Virus record (IMG/VR): IMGVR_UViG_3300033233_000127
Coordinates: 1-30,488 of that record
Origin: a virus
Strand: one strand, 5' to 3'
DNA length: 30,488 nucleotides
Made by a program: the position numbers and the translations under genes. Positions 14,172 through 29,998 of the stretch are shown piece after piece (position 1 is the stretch's first letter; each line of letters starts with the position of its first letter). Under the pieces are notes generated by a model that had not been told where the DNA came from, made no database searches, and saw only the letters and a list, made by a program, of their open reading frames with translations.

Positions 14172-15227
14172 TCACGATGCTGAAGTCTTTAATACTACGA
14201 AGGTTGCTGGATATGCTACATAGAAGCCGAACCTGAAAGTAGCCTTTAACTCAGTCAAATCTTGGTCGAACTTGACTTCTCTGGATGCAGTAATCTGAAG
14301 TTCCTGTCTCATACCAAACATAACGTTTTGTGGGTCACAGAACAAGGCTATCGGCTTAGAAGCAGAGAAGTCAGAAGGCATAACCTCTACTCTTTCGAAT
14401 GGATAGCCTACGAGGGTCTTGGATTCTGGATTCAAAACAGGATAGTTAGTAGTTGTTTTGAGTTCGAATGCTTTTGCATAGAATGTTCTGTGTGCAATCC
14501 AGAACGGGTTAACTTTATAGTCAGAAGGTATTGCGTTTATAGCGTCGATTAGTGCCTCGTAAGTGACGTCAGAAGTATGCCCTGTCGCTTCTACAACATT
14601 TGTAATACCTGAAGTGTTAAGAATTCCGTTAAACGGGTCGCCGTTAGAAGTGTTGCCTGTCAAGATTAGTCTATCCATCTCTTTACCAAGAACTCTACCA
14701 ATCAAATTCACAATGTAAGCATCGACCGCTCCACCGATAGTAGCGTCTGCAAGAAGTTCGTTTGAAATGTCAACAAGTGCCATTAACTTTTTAATCGGCA
14801 CTGAGTTCTGGTAGACCGTTGGGGTTGTTGGAGTAGGTGCAGTATTCTCACCTGGATAACTTACTGTCACAGGTGCTGATACACCAGTGAGATACACTTG
14901 GTTAGACGCAACAGGGATCCTTGTGACTCTTGGATACACAACTGATTGCTGGATTGCAACGTCGATAATACGGTTAATATACTCAGGCGGCACAAGATAC
15001 CCACCTGCTGAACCTGTGCCTTCCACCATTGTGCCTTTGGTTACCATCTCTCTAATAGATTTTGCTAAAGTCCCAGGTTCGACAGAGTATGTGTCTTTGT
15101 TTGCTGTGAACTCCTTCATTGCTTTTACAAGTTCATCATAGGTAACAAACTTTGAATTGAGTTCTGATAAAACCTTTTGTGCGGTTTTCTCAATTATTTC
15201 GCTTTTTACTTGTTCTACTTCGTTCAT
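14172..15227 (-). CDS. Major capsid protein (HK97 fold)
   Basis: A 351-residue protein. The first ~60 residues are a helical delta-like domain (QVKSEIIEKTAQKVLSEL), followed by the family signature GTGSAGGYLVPPEYINRI and the A-domain and P-domain pattern (PIKKLMALVDISNELLADAT, a conserved LGKEMDRLILTGN). The C-terminus has LFCDPQNVMFGMRQEL and ends in strand YVAYPATFVVLKTS. Position after protease and portal is typical. The start at 15227 has GGGAGGGTGATAACA; an in-frame GTG at 15236 is poorer. Chainmail crosslinking residues are not certain. Confidence 0.88.
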   Translation of the reverse strand: MNEVEQVKSEIIEKTAQKVLSELNSKFVTYDELVKAMKEFTANKDTYSVEPGTLAKSIREMVTKGTMVEGTGSAGGYLVPPEYINRIIDVAIQQSVVYPRVTRIPVASNQVYLTGVSAPVTVSYPGENTAPTPTTPTVYQNSVPIKKLMALVDISNELLADATIGGAVDAYIVNLIGRVLGKEMDRLILTGNTSNGDPFNGILNTSGITNVVEATGHTSDVTYEALIDAINAIPSDYKVNPFWIAHRTFYAKAFELKTTTNYPVLNPESKTLVGYPFERVEVMPSDFSASKPIALFCDPQNVMFGMRQELQITASREVKFDQDLTELKATFRFGFYVAYPATFVVLKTSAS

Positions 15228-15241
15228 TGTTATCACCCTCC

Positions 15242-15856
15242 CTAAAGTGATTTTTTTAATTCGTTTAATATGTCTAAAATTCTGTCAGATTTTTGAGCAA
15301 TCGCCTCTAATGAGGTGCTATTTTGCTCTACTTCCGACAGGTCAAGCAACTCTTTAAGTGGGTCTTTGAGGTCTGAAAGTTCCTTTTGTAGTTGAGTAAT
15401 GCCATCTAAGACATTCTTAATCTTTTGCCTGTTTGCCTCTGAAAGAACTCTCCCGTATTTAACCTCGACATCTAAACCACAAGCCTTGTAAATCTCCTCA
15501 TCGCTATAATAGACTTTGTGAAATTCAGGCGGCTCTTTGTCAAAGTCCTTATAATGTTTTGCAAGATGATTGTAAACACCTTCCTTGTCTGAGTCTGGAA
15601 TGTCAACTCCACCTCTTGCTCCAAGTAGTGCTGCCATCGCTGCTGCAACACCTCGCCAGACGGCTTTTAAATCTGATGCTCTGTGATGTGGTAACTTATA
15701 CGAACTCTTGACATCAGGATTAGATTCATCATACCACGCACACATCTTTTTAAGTGTCCCAACATCTGCTTCTTTTACTTCTTTGCCAGCGTCCCACGGC
15801 TCGCTTTCATCTGCATTTCCGTAATCATGATACGGAATTACGCTTTTTACTTCCAT
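15242..15856 (-). CDS. Nested scaffold protein from internal start in protease gene
   Basis: In frame with the protease, an ATG at 15856 is preceded by GAGGTGACAAAA, as strong as any ribosome site in this genome. The product would be 204 residues: the conserved PYHDYGNADE/WRGVAAAMAALL block plus the C-terminal coiled coil, without the catalytic His/Ser domain. This mirrors lambda gpC/Nu3, where the scaffold is translated from within the protease gene. Expression is inferred, not proven. Confidence 0.6.
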   Translation of the reverse strand: MEVKSVIPYHDYGNADESEPWDAGKEVKEADVGTLKKMCAWYDESNPDVKSSYKLPHHRASDLKAVWRGVAAAMAALLGARGGVDIPDSDKEGVYNHLAKHYKDFDKEPPEFHKVYYSDEEIYKACGLDVEVKYGRVLSEANRQKIKNVLDGITQLQKELSDLKDPLKELLDLSEVEQNSTSLEAIAQKSDRILDILNELKKSL

Positions 15857-16360
15857 TTTTGTCACCTCTTTTGTCTTTAATTCTTTAAATTCCTTTACTA
15901 ACGGCTGATATTCAATAGCGTCTTGCACTGCGTATGGATTTGCAGGCACAAGAACTTGCGAAATCTCAAGAAGTTTAACCTTTGTATAAATCCTCTTGAC
16001 GTTATCGCTCCCTGGAACTGATTCGACAGGTATAAAGCCTACGCTATAACTTGCTAATCCATTTTGTGCTAATACCCAAGCCCAGTCGGCTGTCTCGTTA
16101 CCTTGTCCTACGAAGTATTGAATTTTCACATAAAGTCCTTTGTCATCAGTTCTCGCTTCAATCACTTTGCCTAAAGCATTCTCAATCGTCTCGTAATCGT
16201 GAGAATTGATAACTACGCCGTTATAACCTTCCAAGTCCCAAGCGGTGGGAAGTATAATTTCTCCATCTCGGTCTACATCTTTAGTAGAAGCATAAGCCTC
16301 TACGACGTGATTCATTGTGTCTATTTGTTTTGCTACAAAACTCTTAATTATTTTATCCAT
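15242..16360 (-). CDS. Prohead protease (HK97 type) fused to scaffold-like C-terminus
   Basis: A 372-residue protein. Residues 1-~150 match the HK97-type serine prohead protease: His54 in INSHDY and the nucleophile Ser in ASYSVGF (about 104-106), with a following EISQVLVPANP strand. Residues ~175-290 carry a conserved block (PYHDYGNADESEPWDAG ... YKLPHHRASD ... WRGVAAAMAALLGARGG) that I recall from other prohead proteases. The last ~80 residues form a coiled coil (ITQLQKELSDLKDPLKEL). A consensus ribosome site at codon 169 suggests an internal start. The enzyme would cleave the scaffold and mature the head. Confidence 0.85.
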   Translation of the reverse strand: MDKIIKSFVAKQIDTMNHVVEAYASTKDVDRDGEIILPTAWDLEGYNGVVINSHDYETIENALGKVIEARTDDKGLYVKIQYFVGQGNETADWAWVLAQNGLASYSVGFIPVESVPGSDNVKRIYTKVKLLEISQVLVPANPYAVQDAIEYQPLVKEFKELKTKEVTKMEVKSVIPYHDYGNADESEPWDAGKEVKEADVGTLKKMCAWYDESNPDVKSSYKLPHHRASDLKAVWRGVAAAMAALLGARGGVDIPDSDKEGVYNHLAKHYKDFDKEPPEFHKVYYSDEEIYKACGLDVEVKYGRVLSEANRQKIKNVLDGITQLQKELSDLKDPLKELLDLSEVEQNSTSLEAIAQKSDRILDILNELKKSL

Positions 16361-18337
16361 CTAATCTCCCTCCTCTGGAATTAAAATGATAGAGCACCTG
16401 CAATTGATTATGTTTTCTGGACTTCCGTTCTTATCGCCAGGATACATCAATTCCTCTCCCATCACGATAAAAGGCTCGTCAATATCTTTTGTCTGCCCAT
16501 CTGCTTCAGCGTGCCACTCACGAGTTCTCTCGTCTTCACTTGTCAGCCACTGCTTTTTAGTTATCCCGACTTGCTTGCCTGCCTCAAGACTTGCATAGTT
16601 CGTTGCTGATATAGTCTCGGTTCGTGCTATCGTTTCGCTTCTGTTTTTATAAGTTTCCTCAAAAAGCGTTTTCATACGATTTGCCAAGTCTGGTATACCT
16701 TCCCCGTTTTGAATACCCTCAAGAAGTTGGTCATAAACATCTTTGCGAGTAGTCTGTATAATTTCCGATGCCGACTTCTCCAATGACTTCAAAAGTTTGT
16801 CTTGAATCCCTGGAACTTGCAAGTTAAACGAAATACCAAAACCCAAATCATTCAAAACTTTATCTCCCGCCTGTTGCATAAAACTCAAAAGAAACGGCTT
16901 TAAGTGTTTTACAATGTAGTCCTTCCACTCCTCTGAAACGTTTATCGCCACGATGTCTTGCGGTCTCAATGTATCTTTTTTCTCAACATCGCTTTTAGAT
17001 TTCAACGCCTCAAGTTGTTTTAAAACTTCCTTCTCTTGCTTTTTAAAAATATCCATAACTTCTTTTGCAAGCCTCTTCTCCATCGGCTCGGTCATAGCGA
17101 CATAACTCTTCCAAATCTGTGTTCTATCCACCGACTTGTCTTTTTTCTCGAGTTTGCGTTCTATTTTCTCAAGTTTTTCAAGAATTTTAGAAGTCTCAGG
17201 ATTAGGTTGCGGACTTACACTTCCAAGAGATGTCATAGATAGATTACCCCAAAAATCGTTACCCCACGGAACAGGTGGAAGTCCGTCCTCTTGCCTGTAT
17301 TCGTTTACATAATGCAAACCGCTTTGAAGGTTGAGTTGTCTTATCTGTGCTAATAACTGTTGGTCTTCTAACGTAAGGTTTTGAGTAAACTTAAATCTAA
17401 ACTCCGCCTTGCCATCTAAAACTTTCATAGTTATTTGCTCTGCTAAATCGTTTGCAAGAGGTCGGACTACAAACTTCTCAAAGTATTCATATTGCGTCTG
17501 TGCTACGGCTCTGTTGACGCCTTGCATATCATTAAAAAATACGCTTGGTATACCAAGTGCTACTGCTATGCGTTTCATAGCAAATTCATCAGTGTCTCGA
17601 AGTCCGAAGTCATTGGGATTGGTCTTGATATCGTGGACTTCCCATTTTGAGTTTGATAAAAGCATAATCTTTCCCGAGTTTTGCGGACTTGAATATTTTT
17701 CTCTCACTTGGTCTAAAATCGTTTGAACTTGGTCTTTCGTCAGGTGGTCTTCAGTTGTGAGAATTATGTTTAAGAACGCCCCGTTTTGGAACATGTTTGA
17801 TAAGACTTCCATTTGTCTATACTGTGCTTTTGCGTCTTCTAAAACGGTTAAAAGTGGACTTACATCTTTAATTATTCTCACAAACGGTGACTGGCCTGTT
17901 ATCAAAGCGACTTCAGAAATGTCATAAGTATCAGTCCAGAAAACTCTCATATACAAGACTTTAATTTCGCTTGGAGTTACAAGAAGTGTTATTCTATCGC
18001 CATCCAATAACTCAGGTTGTGGAAATGATTTTCGTATAAACGCTATACCTGTTATGTCTCTCCAATATTGTATCTTTTGTAAAAATTGTCTCGGTGTAAG
18101 ATTCACAGGATTAGCAAACCAGCTCATTAACTTCTGATTAGGCTTGTCATCATTTACTATCTCCCATTCCAAATCTGATATCGCCTGTGCTCTTAAGGTC
18201 AAGGCTCGGTTCACATACGGATTTTTTATAGCGGCGTCTTCAAGCGAACTTATATCTGAACTTACACCGCCTGTCAGAAGTCCTGTCCCGACATACGAAA
18301 AATTTTTCTGCTTTTTAAAGAAATCAAAAAGTCCCAT
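16361..18337 (-). CDS. Portal protein fused to Mu gpF-like head morphogenesis domain
   Basis: A 658-residue fusion. Residues 1-~380 follow the phage portal family (NPYVNRALTLRAQAISDLEWEI, a repeated SNMFQNGAFLNIIL, VALGIPSVFFNDMQG, DLAEQITMKVLDGK). After a charged helical linker, residues ~550-655 show the Mu gpF domain: RTETISATNYASLEAG, KKQWLTSEDERTREWHAEADGQ, DEPFIV and INCRCSI. Separate genes are the usual state, but fusions occur. The portal ring is the site of DNA entry; the gpF part likely enters the head or is cleaved. It starts next to the terminase stop and is the first virion gene after packaging. Confidence 0.88.
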   Translation of the reverse strand: MGLFDFFKKQKNFSYVGTGLLTGGVSSDISSLEDAAIKNPYVNRALTLRAQAISDLEWEIVNDDKPNQKLMSWFANPVNLTPRQFLQKIQYWRDITGIAFIRKSFPQPELLDGDRITLLVTPSEIKVLYMRVFWTDTYDISEVALITGQSPFVRIIKDVSPLLTVLEDAKAQYRQMEVLSNMFQNGAFLNIILTTEDHLTKDQVQTILDQVREKYSSPQNSGKIMLLSNSKWEVHDIKTNPNDFGLRDTDEFAMKRIAVALGIPSVFFNDMQGVNRAVAQTQYEYFEKFVVRPLANDLAEQITMKVLDGKAEFRFKFTQNLTLEDQQLLAQIRQLNLQSGLHYVNEYRQEDGLPPVPWGNDFWGNLSMTSLGSVSPQPNPETSKILEKLEKIERKLEKKDKSVDRTQIWKSYVAMTEPMEKRLAKEVMDIFKKQEKEVLKQLEALKSKSDVEKKDTLRPQDIVAINVSEEWKDYIVKHLKPFLLSFMQQAGDKVLNDLGFGISFNLQVPGIQDKLLKSLEKSASEIIQTTRKDVYDQLLEGIQNGEGIPDLANRMKTLFEETYKNRSETIARTETISATNYASLEAGKQVGITKKQWLTSEDERTREWHAEADGQTKDIDEPFIVMGEELMYPGDKNGSPENIINCRCSIILIPEEGD

Positions 18338-19512
18338 TAAAGTATCACCACCTCTGGCGTTCCCCTCTTTAAATGACTATACACTGCGTATCTAAATGCG
18401 TCCATAAGATGATCATTAAACTTGACAGGCTCTTCTAAAACGTTCCCGTCTTTGTCTTTCCTGTAAGAATAACCCTGTATCTCCTTGATGAAGTTTACAC
18501 ATCGTGGGTGTATGTGAATTTTAAAATTCTTTACAAAGTTTATGCCCTGTATGACGTCCTTGTCTGTTTTACCTACTACGAACCCTGCTTCTTGAAGTTC
18601 TCTTATGCGGTCTGGCTCTGCAAGGTCTGGATAGTATACATTGGCCTGTGGTTTGTCTTTTAAAAGTTCAATGAGTTCGGAATTCTTTAAATGACTTTGA
18701 TATATCTCGTCAAAAATATAAAGTTCATTATCCTTTACTCCGATATAAGCAACCGCACTTGGATTATTAAACCCGAAGTCCACGCCTGCAATTATCTCAT
18801 CGAAATTGAGTTCAAACTCTTTGACATCCCAATTGTTATAAATCAACTCCGACAGCGTTCCCCACTCACCAAGAGCATAAACTTTATAAAGGTTCTCATT
18901 TTGATTTTTCAAGCCTTCAAGGACTTCGACATATGATTGGTCTATGAATTTGTTATCCTGATATGTCGTTTTGCGAATTTCGGCTCGGTTGTCTATCGTA
19001 TCAAAGAATCGTTTTTTCAGCCAGTGCAAAGCCGATACAGGGTTAAAGGTCAAAATCACTTGGTGGTATTCTGATGGGTCTCTCAATCGCAAGTCCACCT
19101 GTGTAAAGTCCTCTTCTGAAAGTTCGGTTGCTTCCTCTATCCAGATTGAAGTTATACCAGCAATTGATTTTAATTTCTCAACATCGTCAAGTCCAGCGAA
19201 TAGTATCTGATTGCCATTTTGACATACGATTTTCATTTCGACATCGTTAATCTTAAAAAGACTTGTCAAGTTCCATTCCGAAATTAAATCTTTCAACAAA
19301 AGAAAACTTGAATTTCGCAATGTCCTTGCAACCTTCCTAACTACAAGAATGCGGCTCTTTTTTTCTTGTAAAGTCCTAATAAGGATTTTCTGTGCTGCGA
19401 AATATGACTTCCCTGCACCTGCTCCGCCGTATAAAATTAAATAACGGCTCTTGTTTTCTAAGAGGTCAATATATTTAGGATTAAATACTTCTTGCTCTAT
19501 TTCAATCACCAT
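18337..19512 (-). CDS. terL: Terminase large subunit (ATPase-nuclease)
   Basis: A 391-residue packaging motor of the PBSX/phage-type family. The N-terminal ATPase has Walker A GGAGAGKS (29-36) and a Walker B WIEEATE (about 124-130) with its catalytic Glu, then an adenine/coupling motif TFNPVS. The RNase H-like nuclease follows, with Asp245 in GVDFGFNNP, then YPDLAEPDRI and the final NDHLMDAFRY Asp. Together they translocate and cut DNA at the portal. The gene overlaps the small subunit gene by 11 bases and its stop codon overlaps the portal start. Confidence 0.92.
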   Translation of the reverse strand: MVIEIEQEVFNPKYIDLLENKSRYLILYGGAGAGKSYFAAQKILIRTLQEKKSRILVVRKVARTLRNSSFLLLKDLISEWNLTSLFKINDVEMKIVCQNGNQILFAGLDDVEKLKSIAGITSIWIEEATELSEEDFTQVDLRLRDPSEYHQVILTFNPVSALHWLKKRFFDTIDNRAEIRKTTYQDNKFIDQSYVEVLEGLKNQNENLYKVYALGEWGTLSELIYNNWDVKEFELNFDEIIAGVDFGFNNPSAVAYIGVKDNELYIFDEIYQSHLKNSELIELLKDKPQANVYYPDLAEPDRIRELQEAGFVVGKTDKDVIQGINFVKNFKIHIHPRCVNFIKEIQGYSYRKDKDGNVLEEPVKFNDHLMDAFRYAVYSHLKRGTPEVVIL

Positions 19513-19978
19513 TTCGCTTTATCCTCACAACGATGTTTGCATCGCTAATCTCTTGGAGTTCGCCTTTGTATTTTAAACCCATCTCGATTGCCTTAAGGGC
19601 TTCTGCTGCGTTGGTAAAACCGTGAGATTTCAAAAATTCATATGCTAATTTCTCAAGGTCGGTTACCATTAAAAAGTCATCATGTTTTGCTTTCGCTATG
19701 GCATCGATAAACTGCTCTTCCTTAGATTTGTCACTGTCTTGATTTGCTATGACATCGATAATGCCTTGCTTAACGCCTTCCTCAAATAACGCCTTCCAGC
19801 CGTATTTTTCTGCCCAATTTAAAATAGTTTGAGCCGTCAACTCAATATCAAACCTTTGTCTAATCTCTGATACGATATCCCTTAAAGAATACTTATGAGA
19901 ACCTTCTTTGTTGGGTGTCAAATATAAGTCTTTTGCATAATTTAAAACTTCCTCTTTGACTTTATTTCTTATCTCAAT
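19502..19978 (-). CDS. terS: Terminase small subunit, probable non-canonical start
   Basis: The N-terminal part is a helix-turn-helix region (KYSLRDIVSEIRQRFDIELTAQTILNWAEKYGW) of the type that binds packaging DNA in small terminases, followed by helices for oligomerisation. The only standard start, TTG at 19921, has no ribosome binding site and cuts off the first helix. The frame stays open upstream to 19978, where GCGAGGTGA lies ahead of ATT (19978) and ATA (19972). The ATT overlaps a stop codon in a leader frame (ATTGA). A start at ATT or ATA giving about 156-158 residues is preferred, but a sequencing error is not excluded. Confidence 0.72.
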   Translation of the reverse strand: MEIRNKVKEEVLNYAKDLYLTPNKEGSHKYSLRDIVSEIRQRFDIELTAQTILNWAEKYGWKALFEEGVKQGIIDVIANQDSDKSKEEQFIDAIAKAKHDDFLMVTDLEKLAYEFLKSHGFTNAAEALKAIEMGLKYKGELQEISDANIVVRIKRNGD

Positions 19979-20033
19979 TCACCTCGCAAATAAAAACAGC
20001 GGGAGAGAGAAGGAGGTAGGAACTCCCCCGCAT
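19974..20033 (-). CDS. Possible 19-residue leader peptide across the terminator
   Basis: ATG at 20033 lies 11 bases after AAGGAG and opens a frame reading MRGSSYLLLSPAVFICEVN. It runs straight through the terminator hairpin and ends in TGA overlapping the preferred terminase start. Ribosomes on this frame would disrupt the hairpin and could re-initiate on terS. The codons alone give no proof of translation and this may be chance. Confidence 0.35.
   Translation of the reverse strand: MRGSSYLLLSPAVFICEVN
19991..20031 (-). terminator. Intrinsic terminator before terminase genes
   Basis: On the transcribed strand a 9-bp stem (GCGGGGGAG pairing with CTCTCCCGC, one G-U) with a 15-base loop is followed by TGTTTTTATTT. 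It sits between the early region and the head operon, only about 13 bases before the preferred terS start, leaving no room for a promoter after it. Confidence 0.75.
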
Positions 20034-20130
20034 CGACGTCGCTACTCCTTTTCTTGTTAAGAGGACAGCCCACCACCGAAAGTCCTCTTGTCCCGCACCC
20101 ACGCAGGGTGCACCCCCCAGAAACTTTCAC
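19991..20130 (-). ncRNA. GC-rich structured leader RNA ahead of terminase (attenuator-like)
   Basis: The 140 bases from the promoter motif to the terminator are much richer in GC than their surroundings and hold no conserved gene. In transcription order they form hairpin 1 (GCACCC / GGGTGC, 20095-20111), hairpin 2 (AAGAGGAC / GTCCTCTT, 20059-20089), a palindrome CGACGTCG (20034-20041), and the terminator (20031-19991). AAGGAGTAG (20042-20050) can pair with CTACCTCCTT in the terminator loop (20010-20019), which would be an antiterminator. The layout resembles lambda 6S RNA at pR'-tR' or HK022 put RNA, but neither is recognised by sequence. Confidence 0.6.
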
Positions 20131-20136
20131 AATAAC

Positions 20137-20159
20137 ATTATACTTAAGTTTTCGTCAAA
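20137..20159 (-). promoter_or_regulatory. Promoter-like motif copy C, upstream of terminase leader
   Basis: A -10 TATAAT (20137-20142) lies in AACTTAAGTATAAT, with TTTG and GA also shared at fixed distances upstream with copies at 26.8 and 30.05 kb. No good -35 is seen at 16-17 bases. It overlaps the stop codon of the gene at 20155. It would start the leader RNA at about 20130. Confidence 0.6.
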
Positions 20160-20694
20160 CAAAAATCTTTGTCAACTTTTTTTCGTGATTTTGTAAAAAA
20201 TCTATGACAATGTTTTGCTCCTGTTGTGACAAATTTTCCGCCTCGATAAAGTTTAGAACTCTGTCAATATGTTGGTTTTCCTTTGGGACGATTGTTATCC
20301 AAGCCCGCCTGCAACTATCCAAGAAGTTCACAATTCTAAGTCCGATGTCGTTTAAAATGATGTCTTCACCATCTAAAAATCGAACCGCTTTATGAAGTTC
20401 TTTTACATAGTCATTTAATTCCGGTATTTTCTTACCCTCACCATCTCGACGCATTACCTTGCGTAAACGCTCCTCATCTTTCTTTTGAACGTTATAGTAG
20501 TATTCTTTCCGTCTAATAGAGACTTCCAATTTATGTTTATTATACCAGCCAACCCATCGCCTCTCGTGCTTCCGCTTGATGTTATAAAGTCGCTTTTGTA
20601 TCTCTTCTCCTTGTTTTCTGCACTCATCAGAGCAATATTTTGCGTCTGTTTTGCCTTCAAATTCTTTGCCACAGATAACGCAAACCTTTTTCAC
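20155..20694 (-). CDS. Zinc-ribbon protein of unknown function (179 aa)
   Basis: The N-terminus carries a zinc ribbon, Cys5-x2-Cys8 and Cys21-x3-Cys25 (VCVICGKEF ... YCSDEC), of the same style as in the two HNH endonucleases. A long Arg/Lys-rich helical stretch follows (residues ~30-85), then a helical C-terminal half. No HNH or other nuclease core is visible. A DNA- or RNA-binding role is likely from composition. As the last gene before the control junction and terminase, a late regulator is an attractive but unproven guess. The start is GTG with GAGGTGAACC. Confidence 0.55.
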   Translation of the reverse strand: MKKVCVICGKEFEGKTDAKYCSDECRKQGEEIQKRLYNIKRKHERRWVGWYNKHKLEVSIRRKEYYYNVQKKDEERLRKVMRRDGEGKKIPELNDYVKELHKAVRFLDGEDIILNDIGLRIVNFLDSCRRAWITIVPKENQHIDRVLNFIEAENLSQQEQNIVIDFLQNHEKKLTKIFV

Positions 20695-20702
20695 GGTTCA
20701 CC

Positions 20703-20855
20703 TCACAGGTAGCCACGAAATCTCTTTTTAAAACTCTCAAACTTGAAATGAAGTCCGCTGTCGGTTGATTCCCAAAAAGCGTCGATTACCCACGAAGCGA
20801 TAATGATTACAAAGTAAACGATTAACCAAAATAAAAGTTGAATTAAGGTCTCCAT
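20703..20855 (-). CDS. Small membrane protein (50 aa)
   Basis: This short gene occupies the gap between its neighbours. The ATG at 20855 has AAGGAGAAGACG in front. One hydrophobic span (residues ~4-22) is followed by an amphipathic, basic C-terminus with Phe-Arg-Lys residues. The stop overlaps the ribosome site of the next gene. It may be an early membrane protein; no family is recognised. Confidence 0.6.
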   Translation of the reverse strand: METLIQLLFWLIVYFVIIIASWVIDAFWESTDSGLHFKFESFKKRFRGYL

Positions 20856-20875
20856 CGTCTTCTCCTTTTTATAGT

Positions 20876-21073
20876 CTACTTGTGAGTAGTATACTCTACA
20901 GTATACTCTTCAACTTTAAACTCCTTGCGCTCTTTAAATTCCTGCCTCTTCCCGTTGTTCCAATGCTGGACTGGTCTGAGATAACCGACAGGTCTTGACC
21001 AAATTTCGCATTTTGTCCTCAATGTCTCAGGAATTACAACCCCGTCTTCAATCAAGTCTTTACTCTCTTTCAT
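20876..21073 (-). CDS. Stand-alone NrdD-type glycyl-radical-like peptide
   Basis: A 65-residue protein. Residues 19-45 match the end of class III (anaerobic) ribonucleotide reductase: KCEIWSRPVGYLRP followed by WNNGKRQEF. In full NrdD enzymes, the Gly of the VGYLRP-like segment (here Gly30) carries the radical. The usual Val before it is Pro-Val here. The rest of NrdD and an activase gene are absent. Free short copies of this segment are known to me from other genomes with unclear function; a spare part for host reductase, as YfiD is for pyruvate formate-lyase, is one option. The start at 21073 has AAGGAGATGACAAA. Confidence 0.68.
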   Translation of the reverse strand: MKESKDLIEDGVVIPETLRTKCEIWSRPVGYLRPVQHWNNGKRQEFKERKEFKVEEYTVEYTTHK

Positions 21074-21103
21074 TTTGTCATCTCCTTTCGTTTTAATTGC
21101 CAA

Positions 21104-21376
21104 CTAATTGCCACAATCTCCAAGCATACTTCGTGCTTTTTTGTAGTCTTCAATTACTTGTGCGTTTCTTTTCCTAAGAATGTCTAATAGCGTTTTAATG
21201 TCTTCAGGCTTGTGCCTCACAACGATTGTGCTGTAATAGCCATCATAATGAACTGTCTTTTTTACAATTTCGAAACCTTTTTCTTTTAAAGTCTCTTCTA
21301 AATCTGGTGGTGCATAATTAAATTCGAAAGTATTCATATCAATAACACGAAAGTCCATTTTGATGTATTTATTCAT
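21104..21376 (-). CDS. Hypothetical protein, paralogue of the 23927-24145 gene
   Basis: A 90-residue protein with the layout N-x-F-x-F-x-x-AP-x-x-LE-x-x-LK-x-x-GFE, then strand IVVR and a helical end. The 72-residue product of 23927-24145 shows the same order of residues, so both likely derive from one ancestor. Cys and Gly at the end are not conserved. The start has GGAGGCAAAAA. Function unknown; both lie in the DNA-metabolism operon. Confidence 0.55.
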   Translation of the reverse strand: MNKYIKMDFRVIDMNTFEFNYAPPDLEETLKEKGFEIVKKTVHYDGYYSTIVVRHKPEDIKTLLDILRKRNAQVIEDYKKARSMLGDCGN

Positions 21377-21809
21377 TTTTTGCCTCCTTCATTTCTTTTT
21401 TAAATTCTTCAAAACTCATACCAGTCAATTTTACAAATTCCTTCCTCAGAAGTTCATTCCAAGCCTGTGCGTAAGTTAAGTTGCGTTTAACAGGTTGTTT
21501 AGACAGTTCAAGTAAGTTTTCATAAGTCTCTTCTCCGACTGCGTTTTTGTAAAACTCAATTTTCTCTTCTTCTGTAAGTCGACCACCATGAATTTTGAAA
21601 CGATGACAGTAATAACATAGACTTAACCCGTTGCGTGTGTCCCAGCGTGTATTCCAATTGTCTCTTCCGATGATGTGTGCCGCCTCTACGAATTTTGTTG
21701 ACTTCCCGCACATTCGACAGGTAAAGTTGTCTCGGAGTCTAACGATAAGACTCCAAATCTCGTCATTCTGCTTTACGACTTTCTTTTTCAAGTCCGTTTT
21801 GTTTTTCAA
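21369..21809 (-). CDS. HNH endonuclease (NinG/packaging-type)
   Basis: A 146-residue protein with a compact HNH domain: CRMCGK, EAAHIIGR, WDTRNGLSLCYYCH and a following helix. Such proteins include lambda NinG (Rap-like) recombination nucleases and the HNH partners that stimulate terminase cutting in HK97-like phages. It is not next to the terminase, so a recombination or repair role is also open. The start is TTG with GGGAGGGACGAT. Two AAGGA-type repeats lie in its promoter region. Confidence 0.7.
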   Translation of the reverse strand: MKNKTDLKKKVVKQNDEIWSLIVRLRDNFTCRMCGKSTKFVEAAHIIGRDNWNTRWDTRNGLSLCYYCHRFKIHGGRLTEEEKIEFYKNAVGEETYENLLELSKQPVKRNLTYAQAWNELLRKEFVKLTGMSFEEFKKEMKEAKNE

Positions 21810-21822
21810 ATCGTCCCTCCCA

Positions 21823-21864
21823 CAAGGATAATTTTATACTTTTTTGTCCTTATTGCAAGGATAA
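21823..21864 (-). promoter_or_regulatory. Candidate regulated promoter with repeated operators
   Basis: A -35 TTGCAA (21853-21858), 16-base spacer and -10 TAAAAT (21831-21836) could drive the HNH gene and those after it. CAAGGATAA occurs twice, 33 bases apart (21823, 21856), about three helical turns. TCCTT-AAGGA (21847-21861) forms an inverted repeat over the -35. This suggests a regulator site. Confidence 0.45.
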
Positions 21865-21866
21865 AA

Positions 21867-23072
21867 TTAAAACATTTCATTTTTCGCCTCTTTACTCCAA
21901 TACTCAATACGCTTCTTTGCAATCTCAACATATTCTTGCTCTTTTTCAATTCCAATAAAGTGTCTCCCATTCAAGACTACTGCAATGGCGGTTGTGCCAG
22001 AGCCTAAAAACGGGTCTAAATAAACTTGATTAGGATTAGGCATTTTGGTTAACTTCACAAGATAGTCCATAAGTTTAATGGGCTTGACGGTGGGGTGGTT
22101 GTTCTTATCTACTCCCGCCTCTCGTTCCGACCTGCTTGCCTTTGCGACATAAAAGAAGCGGGAAGCACCACCTGAATTTGACATTAAATTAGGATTATAA
22201 ACTTCTTTTTGATTACCAAATATTCCACCGAATTTGTTTCTTGTTCTACTCATGGCGTGAGTTTCCGTTATCCCGCTCTGCTCGTCCAACATCTCGGCAC
22301 TCGTCTCATCTAATAAAAGATTGGCTGGGAAGCGACCTTCTTTATACATAGGATAATTATTACCATCAGGAGCAATTGCAACACCTCCATTGTGTTTCCC
22401 TCTGCTTATATTATTTATACCTGTTATACATCTTTTATCTGTTTCTTTTTCTTTATCAATTTTTATCCTTGCCTCATCAATATTCAGTCCCGCCACACCC
22501 CACTTGAGAGCGTTTTCAGCAAAAGTGCCATCCAGAGGCTTCATTGCAAGGATAATAGGCTCGTAGGCAGGTTTAAGTGAAGTGCCATAGTTTTTCCACT
22601 CTGGATATGAATCACCAAGAGCCTTGCCAATATTTAAAGACTTCGGAAAGCCCGAACCGTAAAGCCACATCAATGTATCTCTTATCTCCCAACCTGCGTC
22701 CTCAAGTCCACAAGCCAATCTGTGCCAAGTTCGTGTGCCACCGAAAGCCAGAAGCATAGCCCCAGGCTTGGCTACTCTCAGGACTTCTTTTGCCCATTGC
22801 AAAATAAATTGTTGATAAGGCAATCCCGCTTCATAAGTTGGCGATTGCGATATAGGCGCATTTTCTCTATTCATTGATTTTGATTTATCTTTTTTATTTC
22901 TGCTATCCCAATTATCATTTTTCTTAAATTTATCCCATTCCTTCCCCATAAATTCAAGCCCGTAGGGCGGGTCTGTGATTATAGTATCTATGGAATTATC
23001 AGGTATCTCTTTTAAAACTTCAAGGCTGTCACCTTGAATAACCTTGTCTATAAAATCATCGGGATATTTCAT
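21867..23072 (-). CDS. Site-specific DNA methyltransferase (N6/N4 type)
   Basis: A 401-residue protein with the catalytic DPPYGL motif near residue 32 and the AdoMet-binding motif DPFLGSGTTAIA near residue 350, so the motif order is the beta class. It lies with no restriction enzyme partner, so it probably protects phage DNA from the host or alters regulation. The central region, residues ~100-280, likely recognises DNA. The start at 23072 overlaps the upstream stop as ATGA; ATG is preceded by GGGGTGGGCAA. The recognition sequence is not predictable. Confidence 0.85.
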   Translation of the reverse strand: MKYPDDFIDKVIQGDSLEVLKEIPDNSIDTIITDPPYGLEFMGKEWDKFKKNDNWDSRNKKDKSKSMNRENAPISQSPTYEAGLPYQQFILQWAKEVLRVAKPGAMLLAFGGTRTWHRLACGLEDAGWEIRDTLMWLYGSGFPKSLNIGKALGDSYPEWKNYGTSLKPAYEPIILAMKPLDGTFAENALKWGVAGLNIDEARIKIDKEKETDKRCITGINNISRGKHNGGVAIAPDGNNYPMYKEGRFPANLLLDETSAEMLDEQSGITETHAMSRTRNKFGGIFGNQKEVYNPNLMSNSGGASRFFYVAKASRSEREAGVDKNNHPTVKPIKLMDYLVKLTKMPNPNQVYLDPFLGSGTTAIAVVLNGRHFIGIEKEQEYVEIAKKRIEYWSKEAKNEMF

Positions 23073-23296
23073 TTTGCCCACCCCACCAGCCAAACCGATA
23101 AAATAGCAAACCCGATAATAGTTATAAAAGCAATAATGTTTGCAAATACAACCAAGGCTTTTAGAGGAGTTTCGACATTACAATTTCGCCCCAATACTTT
23201 TTTACCATCAGATAAACCCCAGAAAAATATTGCTACTAATATGCCCCAAATACAAAAGAGAAGTATTGCAAGAAAGACTTTGCCTAAAAGTGTCAT
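23069..23296 (-). CDS. Two-span membrane protein (75 aa)
   Basis: Two hydrophobic segments (about residues 5-28 and 48-70) are separated by a charged loop with Cys. The start at 23296 has GGGAGGCGAGGG and overlaps the previous stop (ATGA); its stop overlaps the methyltransferase start. This tight coupling suggests a functional part of the operon. No family recognised. Confidence 0.55.
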   Translation of the reverse strand: MTLLGKVFLAILLFCIWGILVAIFFWGLSDGKKVLGRNCNVETPLKALVVFANIIAFITIIGFAILSVWLVGWAK

Positions 23297-23937
23297 CCCT
23301 CGCCTCCCAGTTGCTTTTGTAAATGATAAATCTCGCAAAGCCGTTTAAAAATCTCAAATTCTATGTCGGTGTTCTTCTTAACTAACTCCTCAAAGCGTTC
23401 ATTTTCCTCTCGGTTAATTCTAACTATCATAACCCTTTCGGGATTTTCATAGCCATTCTCAACCAATAAATTGCGATAAGCACTCAATTGATAGACATAT
23501 GAGTCGTATATTCCGCTTCCTGTTTTCCAATCTGCAAGAGTTAGAATGCCATCTATTTTTCCGTAAAAATCCAGCGTCCCGCCGTATCTATATTTTTCAG
23601 ACACAAGCGAAGCCTCGATTAAAATCGGTTCAATTGTTTTATGTTTTTGCCACTCTAAAAAACTTAAAAAACTATTTTCAGCAAGGTCAATAATGTCTTT
23701 TGAATACTCGCTTGTATCAGTTTTTTGAAGTTTCAAGAAGTCAAGTATCATCTGATGTGCTAAACTGCCAGCGTCGGCGGTAGAGTTCTTAATCTTATGA
23801 ATGTCTTGCCCATTGATGCCTTGCTTCCAAGCCCACTCGATAAGTTGAGGCTTGCTTAAAAGTCCGATAACAGTTGTCACGCTTGGAACGATTTCGCCAC
23901 TCTGTAGCGTATAAACTTGATGGATTTTAGTGTTCAT
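23293..23937 (-). CDS. PD-(D/E)XK nuclease (RecB/Cas4-like phage exonuclease)
   Basis: A 214-residue protein with the core of the family: PSVTTVIGLLSKP near the start, AGSLAHQMI (His61), GGTLDFYGKID (Asp123), LADWKTG (Asp136-x-Lys138) and YQLSAYR (about 149-155). The Asp, Asp-x-Lys set is the metal site. Similar phage enzymes act as recombination exonucleases. No adjacent recombinase is seen and the OB-fold-like gene at 27223 is distant. It lies between YopX and the membrane gene. No sign of CRISPR association. Confidence 0.82.
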   Translation of the reverse strand: MNTKIHQVYTLQSGEIVPSVTTVIGLLSKPQLIEWAWKQGINGQDIHKIKNSTADAGSLAHQMILDFLKLQKTDTSEYSKDIIDLAENSFLSFLEWQKHKTIEPILIEASLVSEKYRYGGTLDFYGKIDGILTLADWKTGSGIYDSYVYQLSAYRNLLVENGYENPERVMIVRINREENERFEELVKKNTDIEFEIFKRLCEIYHLQKQLGGEG

Positions 23938-24145
23938 TATTGATCTCCTTTACGATTTCAATAAGTCTTTGAACTGCGTTTCTCTGGTCTAACTTCGGAA
24001 GCCTGACTACGATTTTGTAATCTCCCGAAAGAAGTTGAAAACTCTGATACACCTCAAAACCCTCGTCTTTCAGTTTTTTCTCAAGTTCCTTCGGTGCGTG
24101 GATAAAACCAAAGAAATTGTTTTCGATAAAATAGCCTGTTCTCAT
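23927..24145 (-). CDS. Hypothetical protein, paralogue of the 21104-21376 gene
   Basis: A 72-residue protein with the pattern F-x-HAP-x-x-LE-x-x-LK-x-x-GFE and IVVR, as in its paralogue. Helix and strand lengths match, while the C-terminal tail is shorter. The start has AGGAGATGACAA and overlaps the previous stop; the end overlaps the nuclease start. Function unknown. Confidence 0.55.
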   Translation of the reverse strand: MRTGYFIENNFFGFIHAPKELEKKLKDEGFEVYQSFQLLSGDYKIVVRLPKLDQRNAVQRLIEIVKEINNEH

Positions 24146-24522
24146 TTGTCATCTCCTAAAAGTTCGGGATTTTCGTAAATGTTGCCAATGACTTTGCAAT
24201 AGTCTGTTATTTTTTTGTTTAAAGGAAAGCCATTATCTAAACTAAATCCACCGATGTCGTTATTCCATTTAACAGAGTGCGTAAACTTATACATCGGGTC
24301 ATAAAGAATATCGCCCTCATAGATTTCGTTATAAACACCGTCGTAAAGTCCTGTGAACTGCATAAGTTCAAAGCCTTTAGAAAGCCCCACCTGCGTTCCT
24401 GTTTGCATTACATACCACATCACCAAAGCGGGATTTCCTCTCCTGTCGAAGAAGTCTAATTTGTATACATTTACCATTTTCTTTTCTTCCGTAAGCCACG
24501 CTCTAAACTTTATTCCTCTCAT
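24142..24522 (-). CDS. YopX-family protein
   Basis: A 126-residue protein with family hallmarks: IKFRAW at the start, LMQFTGLYDG, NEIYEGDILYD and CKVIGNIYENPELL at the end. YopX proteins are common in phages of Gram-positive bacteria and their function is unknown. The region before the start carries AACGAAAGGAGA, repeated before the gene at 21073. Confidence 0.85.
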   Translation of the reverse strand: MRGIKFRAWLTEEKKMVNVYKLDFFDRRGNPALVMWYVMQTGTQVGLSKGFELMQFTGLYDGVYNEIYEGDILYDPMYKFTHSVKWNNDIGGFSLDNGFPLNKKITDYCKVIGNIYENPELLGDDK

Positions 24523-24540
24523 TTCTTGTCTCCTTTCGTT

Positions 24541-25788
24541 TTAAAAGTCCTCTTGAAACTTCCCTGATGGAGTTAAAACCATCTTTTTCCAACCGTTGCT
24601 TAAGACTCCAAGCGTTTGATTTTTTGCAACGGCGTAATAAAATTTGTTTATCTCGTCTTTGTCTCTACGGATTAAAACGACTGAAGTTGCGGTTTGTTCT
24701 AATGCTCCTGAGTCTCGAAGTCTTGATAAATCAATCTCGGTTTCGTCTTCTTCTTTGGCTCTATTAAACTGACTTAAAATAACAATACATCGCTTTTTTG
24801 AAAGTCTCCTGAGTTCTCTTGCAATATATTCCATCTCCTCATTACGACTTGAGCGAGTTTTTGTCTTAATGAGTTGAATATAGTCTATGAAAACTACATC
24901 AAAATTATGACTTTCTATCCAGTTTTCGATATCTGATAAATCTGAATATTCTTCTACAAAATAAAAGTTTTTAAACACATCTTGATTTATAATCGCCATT
25001 CCAGCGTCCCACCACTTTTTGTCTTTGAGGTTTATATTCGCAAGTGGCGTCCCCTGAGAAATTTTTGAAAGTTCGTCTCCAAACTCCCAGTTGATTAATC
25101 TTAGAAGTAGTTGTTCTCTCCCGAGTTCCATACTTAAATAGCCAACTTTCGCACCTTGAAAGAGAAATGATAAAGCAAGATTTAATGCGATTTGAGTTTT
25201 GCCTGTTGAAGTTCTCCCAGCAATATAGATATTTTCGCCTCTCATAAACGGTATGAAATAAGTTAACTTTGAAAGATTGTCTGAAGTCCAGCGTTTGGAT
25301 TCAGCAAGTCGTTTGTAATCGTCTTCGGTCAAGGTCTCGCCAAAAGGCTTTTCGGACTCATCTATATATAGACTTGATAATTCAGAGCCGATTTGCCTTA
25401 TAGTATCTAAGTCTCCAGCAAGTGCCGAATCCTGTATTTTTTCACCGAGTTCAAATGCGTGCCTCAGGACTGATTTCTCTTTAACCACTCGTATATAGTA
25501 AGGTAGGTTTATCGAGGTCGGTATCGACATAGCAAGTTGCATCAGATACGATTCGCCACCGACTTCTGCAAGTTTATCTCCAAGTTCGTTTATGACCGAA
25601 ACGATATCGGGTTCAACGTTTTTGAACCACAAACTTTGAATTGCTTTAAAAATTTCTTGATGTTCTGTCCAATAAAAGTCTTGAGGACTTAACTCCTCGC
25701 CACCTTTACCGTAAGCCAAAATGCAACCTAAAATAAATTGCTCCGCTTCGACTGAATACGGTAGCGGTCTAAGTTCAGAAGTAGCCAT
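24541..25788 (-). CDS. dnaB: Replicative DNA helicase, DnaB-like
   Basis: A 415-residue protein of the DnaB family. An N-terminal helical domain (EAEQFILGCIL, VGGESYLMQLAMSIPT) is followed by a RecA-like domain with Walker A GRTSTGKT near residue 191, LSMELGREQL, a Walker B VVFIDYIQLI and LSQFNRA. It unwinds the fork as a hexamer in the replisome, and is loaded by the gene next door. The start at 25788 has GGAGGCAGGTT. The gene overlaps the initiator gene by 14 bases. Confidence 0.9.
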   Translation of the reverse strand: MATSELRPLPYSVEAEQFILGCILAYGKGGEELSPQDFYWTEHQEIFKAIQSLWFKNVEPDIVSVINELGDKLAEVGGESYLMQLAMSIPTSINLPYYIRVVKEKSVLRHAFELGEKIQDSALAGDLDTIRQIGSELSSLYIDESEKPFGETLTEDDYKRLAESKRWTSDNLSKLTYFIPFMRGENIYIAGRTSTGKTQIALNLALSFLFQGAKVGYLSMELGREQLLLRLINWEFGDELSKISQGTPLANINLKDKKWWDAGMAIINQDVFKNFYFVEEYSDLSDIENWIESHNFDVVFIDYIQLIKTKTRSSRNEEMEYIARELRRLSKKRCIVILSQFNRAKEEDETEIDLSRLRDSGALEQTATSVVLIRRDKDEINKFYYAVAKNQTLGVLSNGWKKMVLTPSGKFQEDF

Positions 25789-26734
25789 AACCTGCCTCCT
25801 TTTTGGGTTCGGGCTTTGGTTGAGGTTTTGCATTGCTTGATTTTTCTGATGCCTTACTCAACCAATTGTATATAAACCTTTCATAGTTCTTTTTGCGTCT
25901 TTCAGGATTTGCAGACAGCCATACTTCCATTTTCTTAATTTCGGCTTCCACATCGCAATTAAAAGTTTCTTTCCACTTATTAAGTTTTTCGATAGGTATG
26001 TTTTCAAGTTTGAGAGTTTGCTCGTTAAACATAATCGGTTGCGACTTCGCCACTTTTGAAGGGGGGACACTTAAAAGGGGGGTTATATCTTTTAAATCTT
26101 TTTCATCTTTTAGAGAAGAACCCAAAAAATTATTATTACTTATATTATTTATATCTTTATTCTTACTTCTTATACTTCTTACATTCTTAAGCGTGTCTTG
26201 AGCCTGCGTTTCATCTATATTTGTTTGAGTTATGATTTCCCTTTGATTTACATTTGATTTACCTATATCGTTTTTTTGCTCTAAAATTTTGCTCTCCAAA
26301 TTAGAATTTTCCTTCTGTTCTATGATTGACATATGATTTACCTCTAACCCTGTTTTGCAATTTTCGCTTGACAAATTATTTTGATATTTCTCGTAATTAA
26401 GGACAGTAATGACTTCTCCACGCCATACCTTCCGCCTCTTAATCATTCCTTCCTGTTCTAACCAATTAAGGCAGTTATACCATATGCGATTTGTGATATC
26501 AAACGGCAGGGCTTCATATTCTACGCTTCTGAAATGTGCTTCGCCTTTTTTGTATGAGTTGTTATTTACAAAACTAACCTTTAATAAGATGTATATCCAG
26601 CATACAACCCAACTCGACGGCTTTGTTTCCCAGATTTTGCTTTCGGTGATTTGCCTATAGAGTTTTATCCATCCACCATAAGACTCTTGCGGTTCGTTGA
26701 CTTCATTGACTTCGCTTTGATTGTTGTTATCCAT
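25775..26734 (-). CDS. Replication initiator / helicase loader (DnaD/DnaT-like)
   Basis: A 319-residue protein. Residues ~17-125 hold a winged-helix type domain as in Gram-positive phage replication proteins (GGWIKLYRQI, WVVCWIYILLK, TNRIWYNCLNWLEQEGMI, ITVLNYEKYQNN). A long low-complexity Asn/Ser-rich linker follows. The C-terminal 70 residues (KWKETFNCDVEAEIKKMEVWL, ERRKKNYERFIYNWL) match a loader domain often paired with DnaB. It likely binds the origin and loads the helicase. The start at 26734 is preceded by GGAAGGAAGGCAAGA, which can be sealed by the leader RNA. Confidence 0.78.
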   Translation of the reverse strand: MDNNNQSEVNEVNEPQESYGGWIKLYRQITESKIWETKPSSWVVCWIYILLKVSFVNNNSYKKGEAHFRSVEYEALPFDITNRIWYNCLNWLEQEGMIKRRKVWRGEVITVLNYEKYQNNLSSENCKTGLEVNHMSIIEQKENSNLESKILEQKNDIGKSNVNQREIITQTNIDETQAQDTLKNVRSIRSKNKDINNISNNNFLGSSLKDEKDLKDITPLLSVPPSKVAKSQPIMFNEQTLKLENIPIEKLNKWKETFNCDVEAEIKKMEVWLSANPERRKKNYERFIYNWLSKASEKSSNAKPQPKPEPKKEAGYGYF

Positions 26735-26736
26735 TC

Positions 26737-26799
26737 TTGCCTTCCTTCCTAGGAGTGGGGAAGGGGGAAGGAGGCAAGTCCCAAGCCCTTCCCTCACTC
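26737..26799 (-). promoter_or_regulatory. Leader RNA with competing hairpins covering the initiator RBS
   Basis: The leader from the promoter to the initiator start is GC-rich. GAGTGAGGGAAGGG (26786-26799) pairs with CCCTTCCCCACTC (26753-26765), 13 bp with one bulged A. Alternatively TTGCCTCCTTCC (26766-26777) pairs with GGAAGGAAGGCAA (26737-26749), 12 bp with one bulge, which masks the ribosome site. Both folds are possible but exclusive in part, as in a translational switch. Confidence 0.55.
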
Positions 26800-26807
26800 T
26801 TACTTAT

Positions 26808-26835
26808 ATTATACTCAAGTTTTCTGCAAATCCAA
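26808..26835 (-). promoter_or_regulatory. Promoter-like motif copy A, before the initiator gene
   Basis: TATAAT at 26808-26813 lies in AACTTGAGTATAAT, with TTTG at the far end of the motif (26830). A -35 TTGGAT (26830-26835) sits 16 bases upstream. The same motif occurs before the HNH gene (30.05 kb) and the terminase leader (20.14 kb). Confidence 0.65.
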
Positions 26836-26841
26836 TACCTT

Positions 26842-27042
26842 TTACCTATCATTTTCAAAATTCTTCAAAAATTCCTCTAAGTCTTCCTTTTTAATAAACC
26901 ACTGCCAGCCGATTTTGACGGCCTTTAATTTCCCACGATAGATGTAGTATTTGATTTTTGACTCTCGCATTCCAGTAGTCTTTACGATGTCCGTGATTGA
27001 TAGGTAGTTTGTTAAGTCAATCGTTTCATTTCCCCATTTCAT
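26842..27042 (-). CDS. HTH (MerR/excisionase-like) DNA-binding protein
   Basis: A 66-residue protein with a helix-turn-helix, LSITDIVKTTGM, followed by KIKYYIYRGKLKAVKIG and WFIKKEDLEEFLKN, the helix-wing pattern of excisionase/HTH_17 proteins. No integrase is present, so excision is unlikely; it may regulate early transcription or replication. It lies just before promoter copy A. The start at 27042 (ATG) has AAGGTGAAGAAA; a GTG three codons upstream is possible. Confidence 0.72.
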   Translation of the reverse strand: MKWGNETIDLTNYLSITDIVKTTGMRESKIKYYIYRGKLKAVKIGWQWFIKKEDLEEFLKNFENDR

Positions 27043-27226
27043 TTTCTTCACCTTCTCCTTCTTCTCTTACCACCAACGCCGCACCTAATAATTTTCCGAA
27101 ATTGAGTGCGTAGAATTTTGCAATCTCCTCTACATCTGATGCTGGTATTGTGAGGACGAGTTTTGCCTCGCCCTCTCTGTCGATTTTCAAATTCTCTAAA
27201 GCACAACTAAAAACCACATTCTTCAT
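27026..27226 (-). CDS. Hypothetical early protein (66 aa)
   Basis: A small acidic protein with a beta strand (EAKLVLTIPA), a helix (DVEEIAKFYALNFGKLLGAAL) and an acidic tail. It overlaps both neighbours by a few bases. No family recognised; its layout resembles accessory proteins of DNA replication operons only in position. Confidence 0.5.
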   Translation of the reverse strand: MKNVVFSCALENLKIDREGEAKLVLTIPASDVEEIAKFYALNFGKLLGAALVVREEGEGEENEMGK

Positions 27227-27621
27227 TTTTCACCTCCAATTAAATTCTTGAAAGTCTCGTAAATGAATTGTATCTCCTCAAGCGTCTGTTGTAAAGTTTT
27301 GGTCTCTTTGCTTTTTTCCATAATCGCAATCTCCAAGTCTTTTGCATACGCAAGAATCATTGCGTTTAGGTTTACAACTTTTGAGCCTCCAAATGATTTA
27401 TTTTCTTTTGGGAATTGGATGTAAAACCACTTGCTTGTGTTCCCTTGTGAGTCTGTTGTGTCTTTTTCTCGCACATCAACCTCAATCTCATCTCCAATCT
27501 TCTTATCTTGCATCTTTGTGTCGAAGCAATAATAAGTTACACCGCTTGACTTTACTACCCAATAAGGTCTCCCATCTTGTTTCGCCTTTTTCTCAAGGCT
27601 GTCGATTTTCATTTTAGTCAT
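27223..27621 (-). CDS. OB-fold-like early protein (possible ssDNA-binding)
   Basis: A 132-residue protein. Residues ~18-75 alternate strands typical of an OB fold: PYWVVKSSGVTYYCFD, KIGDEIEVDVREKD, KWFYIQFPKENK. The C-terminal 55 residues are helical. Its place in the replication operon suggests a single-strand DNA-binding role, but the acidic C-terminal tip of true SSB is absent. The start has GGAGGTGCAAA. Confidence 0.5.
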   Translation of the reverse strand: MTKMKIDSLEKKAKQDGRPYWVVKSSGVTYYCFDTKMQDKKIGDEIEVDVREKDTTDSQGNTSKWFYIQFPKENKSFGGSKVVNLNAMILAYAKDLEIAIMEKSKETKTLQQTLEEIQFIYETFKNLIGGEK

Positions 27622-27850
27622 TTTGCACCTCCATGTGCCCTTCTTTTATTAGAATGTTTTTTACTACTTCCAAGGCTTCTTTTAAACTTTCCTTGTGAGT
27701 AAAAGCATAAGCATAAATCCTTCCACCATAATACACCGTCCAGCCACCAGCAATTTTTTCAATCGTTAAATTACAAACATCGCCTTTGACCCTCTTGCCT
27801 TTTACCTCAATTCTCTCTGGTAATTCGTTTAGCAATTCCTCAATTCCCAT
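27614..27850 (-). CDS. Hypothetical early protein (78 aa)
   Basis: A small mixed alpha/beta protein (ELLNELPERIEVKG, VCNLTIEKIAGGWTVYYGG, SLKEALEVVKNIL). The strand-helix layout resembles small phage proteins of unknown function. The start has AGGAGGCGATT. It overlaps the next gene by 8 bases. Confidence 0.5.
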   Translation of the reverse strand: MGIEELLNELPERIEVKGKRVKGDVCNLTIEKIAGGWTVYYGGRIYAYAFTHKESLKEALEVVKNILIKEGHMEVQND

Positions 27851-27879
27851 AATCGCCTCCTGCGTTTAAAGTCCGCCGA

Positions 27880-28415: not shown

Positions 28416-28428
28416 TTTTGCCTCCTTG

Positions 28429-28466
28429 AAAAATAAATATAGGGCGGAAGCCCTATGCTCCGCCCT
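28429..28466 (-). terminator. Terminator-like hairpin inside early operon
   Basis: AGGGCGGA (28459-28466, at the 3' end of the preceding gene) pairs with TCCGCCCT (28441-28448), an 8-bp perfect stem with a 10-base loop, followed on the transcribed strand by ATATTTATTTTT. Position between two early genes suggests partial termination or processing. Confidence 0.6.
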
Positions 28467-28788: not shown

Positions 28789-28797
28789 GTTTGCCTC

Positions 28798-29995: not shown

Positions 29996-29998
29996 TTT

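Follow-up and report, generated by a model that had tools for sequence, protein, structure and literature searches.

What controls the passage of RNA polymerase from the early genes of a phage into its packaging and head genes? We consider this question for a 165-base stretch that lies directly ahead of these late genes in the viral record IMGVR_UViG_3300033233_000127 (30,488 bases in length, with its ends classed as linear), which was analysed at its full length and is called the window here. The main genes of the window are carried on the minus strand. The early region is headed by a perfect consensus promoter (TTGACA-17-TATAAT, 29147-29119, minus strand) and includes genes with profile matches to DnaD/DnaB-like replication proteins, an exonuclease, a DNA methyltransferase, and NinG/HNH. 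It is followed on the same strand by a gene for a 179-residue protein (20694-20155), the element, a putative small terminase gene (TerS), the large terminase gene (TerL), and the head genes. TerL (18337-19512, minus strand; PF04466, E 7e-59, and PF17288) is the first recognised gene of the packaging and head operon. Its nearest annotated DNA matches include Thermoanaerobacterium and Marinitoga phages; the closest relatives of the window are contigs from metagenomes 3300033233 and 3300043540.

The putative TerS gene (19502-19972, minus strand) adjoins TerL and found no family match in profile searches. Its start, aligned behind a conserved GAGGTG, is probably an ATA codon (19972-19970, minus strand) behind a good ribosome site; this codon is ATA in contig c572, CTG in c0435, and TTG in the other relatives, and gene callers that accept only ATG, GTG, and TTG make the protein 17 residues shorter. 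Two observations concern the early side of the locus. A second terminator-like hairpin (28466-28441, minus strand; AGGGCGGAGCATAGGGCTTCCGCCCT with a T-rich tail) sits about 650 bases past the perfect early promoter and overlaps the end of an early gene. Further, a free-standing, 75-residue C-terminal stub of NrdD (anaerobic ribonucleotide reductase) is encoded at 20876-21103 (minus strand), at L004 1630-1848, and at L111 2571-2798. It matches PF13597 at profile positions 532-562 of 562, is the only NrdD-family match in the record, and looks like a spare glycyl-radical domain. Y06I/YfiD is such a spare domain for pyruvate formate-lyase.

The element occupies 20142-19980 on the minus strand and consists of a -10 box, two hairpins, a AAAAGGAG segment, a predicted intrinsic terminator, and a ribosome-binding site. 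The -10 box TATAAT (20142-20137) is invariant in the window and its eight relatives and forms the upstream boundary. Transcription is predicted to begin at about 20130 (GUGAAAGUUUCUGGGGGG), giving an RNA of about 140 bases. Near its 5' end, GGGGGG (20118-20113; GGGGAG in most relatives) provides the 5' strand of a predicted competing helix, P0, whose partner is 20007-20001. The original prediction had described two hairpins in a GC-rich leader, and both are present: P1 (20112-20094, TGCACCC-TGCGT-GGGTGCG) and P2 (20089-20059, AAGAGGAC-(15)-GTCCTCTT). They are followed by the Shine-Dalgarno-like GAAAAGGAG (20053-20045), which includes the core of the proposed antiterminator (20050-20045), and by a linker (20044-20032). 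At 57% G+C, against 39%, the element is the richest and most stably folding stretch of its length in the window (rank 1 of 1786 sampled stretches); its total folding energy is no better than that of dinucleotide shuffles (z -0.12).

Downstream of the linker lies the terminator hairpin (20031-19999, GCGGGGGAG-15-CTCTCCCGC), with nine base pairs and -15.2 kcal/mol when folded alone (about -13 to -17 kcal/mol across contigs). As RNA it reads GCGGGGGAG-UUCCUACCUCCUUCU-CUCUCCCGC, then UGUUUUUAUUU; its T-run TGTTTTTATTT (19998-19988) is T-rich in all nine contigs. The hairpin thus agrees with the terminator that had been predicted, with two weaknesses: the T-run is interrupted (TGTTTTTA) and the loop is long. 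The full hairpin escaped our automatic terminator scan, whose limit on loop length is 8 bases. Within the 15-base loop stands CCTCCTT (20016-20010), the complement of AAGGAG and identical in letters to the anti-Shine-Dalgarno tail of 16S rRNA. The ribosome-binding site of the first late gene, GAGGTG (19985-19980, present in 9/9), forms the downstream boundary. Because it lies directly behind the T-run, there is no room for a later promoter, as had been argued at the outset.

The promoter is less clear-cut. It had been described as a promoter-like motif, and its perfect TATAAT stands; upstream of this box we found no recognisable, correctly spaced -35, the sequence TTGACG lying just 10 bases from TATAAT. 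The scanner's top call at the element, TTGACG-18-TATTGT (9/12), is not above chance, since 36 such sites were found against 38 expected from shuffles. The sole perfect -35/-10 promoter on the minus strand within the scanned 15000-30488 is the early one at 29147, far upstream, so that a perfect early consensus (29147-29119) contrasts with a late promoter lacking a -35. Repeats of TTGAC/TTTGAAAA precede the late -10 box (20155-20180, minus strand; L003 4330-4378). They vary with the allele of the upstream gene, overlap its coding end, and could be candidate activator sites. The TTGAC-type repeats and the TATTGT/TATAGT motifs by the -10 box lie partly within coding sequence and have spacings unlike those of Q sites or a pause element.

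We turn to the relatives of the element. Pattern and protein searches yielded eight phage contigs in addition to the window, each from one of the two metagenomes, so that all comparisons rest on nine sequences of a single lineage. All nine carry the element in the same place, directly behind the same gene, which we call P and which occurs as two alleles. Between contigs the module is 81-97% identical; in pairs of contigs that differ in allele, the upstream flanks are 49-57% and the downstream flanks 51-67% identical, the level of unrelated DNA in the same comparison or of diverged TerS. BLAST blocks against contigs with the other allele (L003, L007, L111) begin at 20142, the first base of TATAAT, and those against c120 and c243, two contigs with a different next gene, stop at 19979 and 19977, at the ribosome site. 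Because identity and BLAST blocks break at these points, we take the conserved unit to run from the -10 box to the ribosome site.

What follows the module changes. Seven contigs continue with one of three TerS types and then TerL. The element is nevertheless no leader of terminase genes in particular: c120 (L004) has a ParB-N6/N4-methyltransferase directly behind it (L004 2751-4079), and c243 (L111) has a transporter of the Vut_1/YhhQ type together with a DpdA-like queuine transglycosylase (3662-5772), then a different TerL. These first late genes of c243 suggest 7-deazaguanine DNA modification. Despite the different TerL and the lack of an adjacent TerS, c243 retains the module at 92%. The alleles before and the genes after the element thus combine almost freely, and the retention of the module while its flanking genes are swapped suggests a self-contained on/off gate for late genes. 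The layout behind the readthrough proposal (-10 box, structured leader, putative terminator, late genes) holds in 9/9 contigs.

Variation within the module is distributed unevenly. None of the 30 columns in the stems of P1 and P2 varies, against 12 of 20 in their loops (Fisher p 1e-6, n=9); the loop of P1 varies, as do 9 of the 15 loop columns of P2. Likewise, GAAAAGGAG (nine columns) and CCUCCUU (seven) together show 0/16 variable columns against 21/29 in the remaining linker and terminator loop (p 1e-6); the linker beside GAAAAGGAG varies in 11 of its 13 columns, and the terminator loop around CCTCCTT otherwise changes in sequence and length. The column blocks behind both p-values were partly chosen after the alignment had been viewed, and only the antiterminator core had been named before any relative was seen. 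Judged from this pattern, there is purifying selection on the stems and on the AAAAGGAG/CCTCCTT pair. The hairpins are not lost in close relatives, the P1 and P2 stems being kept in 9/9. Terminator pairs vary and yet stay paired, with a compensatory G-C to A-U change in c0435 and with G-U/A-U/G-C swaps; one cell of the pairing table fails. The shuffle control reached covariation counts as high in 83-122 of 500 shuffles, and is weak because few pairs vary. Covariation cannot bear on P1, P2, the core of P3, or the 5' GGGG, because all of these are invariant.

Can this RNA adopt a second fold? Pairing of 20042-20050 with 20010-20019 had been put forward as a competing antiterminator. The complementarity is there, and its core of six base pairs, AAGGAG:CUCCUU, is invariant in 9/9. 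In eight of the nine contigs, the minimum-energy fold is not the terminator but a multi-branched competing form composed of P0 (5' GGGGAG with the 3' arm of the terminator), P1, P2, and P3 (AAGGAG with CCUCCUU). The exception is c254, which is predicted to terminate; the predicted probability of P0 is 0 in c254 and 0.93-0.99 in the other eight folds. The energy gap between the competing and the terminated form is 0.6-5.3 kcal/mol, and is therefore small enough to allow a switch. The antiterminator is not stronger than shuffled upstream sequence provides: with the terminator held fixed and the upstream part shuffled, as little termination is predicted for 3-47% of the shuffles of each contig other than c254, since G abounds in the upstream part and C and U in the hairpin. 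No base of P3 belongs to the terminator stem, and a form that held both would be a pseudoknot; we infer that the two compete, because a last loop of 2-3 bases seems too short for six pairs. Folds of growing transcripts show no simple order of events. On these predicted folds, a gate is likely and a switch by AAGGAG/CCUCCUU refolding is possible.

The gene just upstream supplies a candidate regulator, by position only. P (20155-20694, minus strand) encodes a 179-residue protein with an N-terminal treble-clef-like zinc finger (C5, C8, C21, C25), a long helix, and a helical C-terminal domain. The N-terminus matches phrog_2862 and phrog_1271, and the zinc finger is of a type known from phage HNH proteins. 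The two alleles across the nine contigs share 34-36% protein identity. Searches with the C-terminal domain find P only in the nine contigs that carry the element, which ties P to the RNA; because one RNA serves both alleles, no tight RNA-protein co-evolution is seen. Profile searches returned no match to Q or to RinA/ArpU. The structure model is of moderate quality and its fold matches are weak; resemblance of the C-terminal part to chains that seem to be ribosomal protein L17 (Z about 5-6) was set aside as untrustworthy.

From these observations, we regard as real a conserved, modular leader, putatively acting as RNA and ending in a predicted terminator, that stands before the late genes throughout a narrow lineage of phages. 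We further propose, as the probable reading, that it is a self-contained leader that gates the late genes by conditional termination, with logic like that of pR'-tR'. Polymerase would start at, or enter through, the -10 box at 20142, a weak promoter, and would make a structured RNA of about 140 bases, stopping at the intrinsic terminator (20031-19988). Late genes would be expressed only by polymerases that pass this point. Less certainly, release may come from the alternative fold, in which AAGGAG pairs with CCUCCUU and the 5' GGGGAG with the 3' arm of the terminator; refolding could be helped by a factor with affinity for the invariant hairpins or for AAAAGGAG. Since the module reassorts freely, RNA polymerase, a Nus factor, the ribosome, or a shared phage protein is a likelier partner than an allele-specific one. 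The ribosome is a candidate because AAAAGGAG is a Shine-Dalgarno and CCUCCUU an anti-Shine-Dalgarno sequence. From sequence we infer that the terminator is active inside cells and its readthrough controlled.

The strongest competitor, which is less likely than not, assigns control to the protein: P, in the manner of Q or RinA, would activate the promoter, or load onto polymerase there and render it resistant to the terminator, and the RNA would be mostly a passive leader and terminator. P lies just ahead of the promoter, as do lambda-type Q (PMC6606751) and the RinA-family regulator of Thermoanaerobacterium phage THSA-485A, the absence of a usable -35 ahead of TATAAT points to an activator, and our searches found the P gene and the RNA jointly in 9/9 contigs and in no others. 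However, invariant P1 and P2 stems and two invariant motifs would not be kept by a leader that is merely passive, two very different P alleles share one module, and P lacks profile similarity to Q or RinA as well as a firm structural match. Could the hairpins themselves do the work? Like put of HK022, they might bind the transcribing polymerase and carry it past the terminator without a phage protein: P1 and P2, about 50 bases in total, come right after the promoter, their stems are invariant while their loops vary, and an autonomous element accords with the free exchange of both flanks. We find this improbable: if antitermination were constitutive and autonomous, the adjacent terminator would serve no purpose unless it is conditional, put belongs to early rather than late operons, and P1 is a short simple hairpin without the long bulged stems of put. 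Alternatively, the terminated RNA of about 140 bases may itself be the product, its loop CCUCCUU pairing with Shine-Dalgarno sequences. This is unlikely in our estimate, even with CCUCCUU invariant in a variable terminator loop and equal to the 16S anti-Shine-Dalgarno tail, and with a precedent in StxS, a pR'-tR' by-product that acts as a small RNA (PMC7873438). The loop would be hidden by the invariant AAAAGGAG of the same RNA (in 7/9 folds the loop is unpaired with a probability of about 0.2), and the element always heads the late operon, never standing free (9/9).

Other readings fare worse. Packaging sites are commonly found close to the gene for the small terminase, and the module sits exactly at swap points, as a DNA site (a cos/pac packaging site or a recombination linker) might. 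That it is such a site instead of an RNA element is very unlikely, given its retention at 92% in c243, with a different TerL and no adjacent TerS, and given the stem-versus-loop pattern and the compensation in the terminator, which indicate RNA; a linker role could coexist with an RNA role. We give hardly any credence to attenuation by a leader peptide, with AAGGAG as the ribosome site of a short frame through the terminator: an ATG stands 11 bases past AAGGAG in 7/9 contigs, but c0435 has no start, c254 lacks the spacing, and indels of 1-3 bases alter frame and peptide. We also discarded a frame through the whole RNA (53 residues from GTG 20130), which is broken by indels in c254, c0435, and c243, and masking of the first gene's Shine-Dalgarno sequence by the terminator loop, with a pairing probability of 0 in 9/9.

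The preferred reading, a leader gating late genes by conditional termination, has a bolder extension that we hold to be doubtful: a mobile RNA gate whose own refolding switches the late operon, sensed through the host polymerase or the internal Shine-Dalgarno/anti-Shine-Dalgarno pair, and which phages pass on as a fixed unit. If true, regulators and cargo would be swapped around this unit, and a pair that mimics the 16S tail would couple late transcription to ribosomes. Control of late genes is poorly known beyond lambdoid and a few model phages, and RNA gating of late genes is rare. The element offers a new structured RNA family to seek in related phages, and its sharp bounds make the module a clear object for asking what opens the gate: the RNA by itself, the upstream protein, or the ribosome.

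How does the element compare with known systems? In line with the original prediction's remark that the sequence matches neither lambda pR'-tR' nor HK022 put, it fits no leader family in Rfam: the covariance models found no match in the window at gathering score and nothing credible at E up to 10, the best sub-threshold score being 16.7 bits for atoC against a cut-off of 50. Nothing like the element appeared in distant blastn searches of annotated phages and plasmids, nor did a covariance model give a true match when run over remoter TerL relatives and 398 genomes from a single phylum. Two sets of candidates were rejected: 14 matches to the P2 pattern in a genome collection, which are only chance AAGAGGAC/GTCCTCTT hairpins, and a 27-bit match in Saccharibacillus that lies where an insertion element ends, next to transposase-like genes. 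Across 18 more distant TerL loci and THSA-485A, strong terminator-like hairpins upstream of TerL occur only in L020 and L024, and these have no similarity to the element. The literature on late-leader RNAs yielded only the comparators cited here (Q, put, P7, and StxS), and a literature search on the metagenome found nothing.

The nearest likeness is to pR'-tR' with Q in lambda and phage 21, where a regulator gene, promoter, short leader, terminator, and late operon stand in the same order and readthrough is needed. In all nine contigs, a putative intrinsic terminator (20031-19988) lies between the late promoter and the late genes, and P occupies the position of Q or RinA. Here, however, the upstream protein has no profile match to Q, there is no clear pause element, packaging genes follow directly, and the leader RNA is strongly conserved as structure and reassorts between regulator alleles. 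In Gram-positive phages, RinA/ArpU late activators likewise come from a small gene set immediately before the terminase operon (a RinA-family one in THSA-485A), but P has no such profile match and is followed by a structured terminator leader. We do not file the element under Q or RinA systems because searches with the protein gave neither family. Sequence and bulge features of put contact the zinc-binding domain of polymerase. HK022 put is a two-stem RNA of about 70 bases that needs no dedicated protein, and putL adjoins PL (PMC9378689). The conserved P1 and P2 likewise form a two-stem RNA near the 5' end, with possible RNA-based antitermination, whereas put serves early operons, has longer bulged stems, and includes no terminator in its module. 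With P7, Xp10 has a protein for opening the intrinsic terminators that precede late genes (PMC6624301). StxS of Stx phages is also a short terminated leader transcript before late genes that may act in trans, but here the terminator loop is an anti-Shine-Dalgarno sequence with a built-in complement. Finally, the element resembles attenuators and riboswitches of Bacillota in its mutually exclusive predicted folds and its terminator directly before a ribosome-binding site, and differs from them in lacking an Rfam match and in standing at the front of a phage late operon whose cargo changes.
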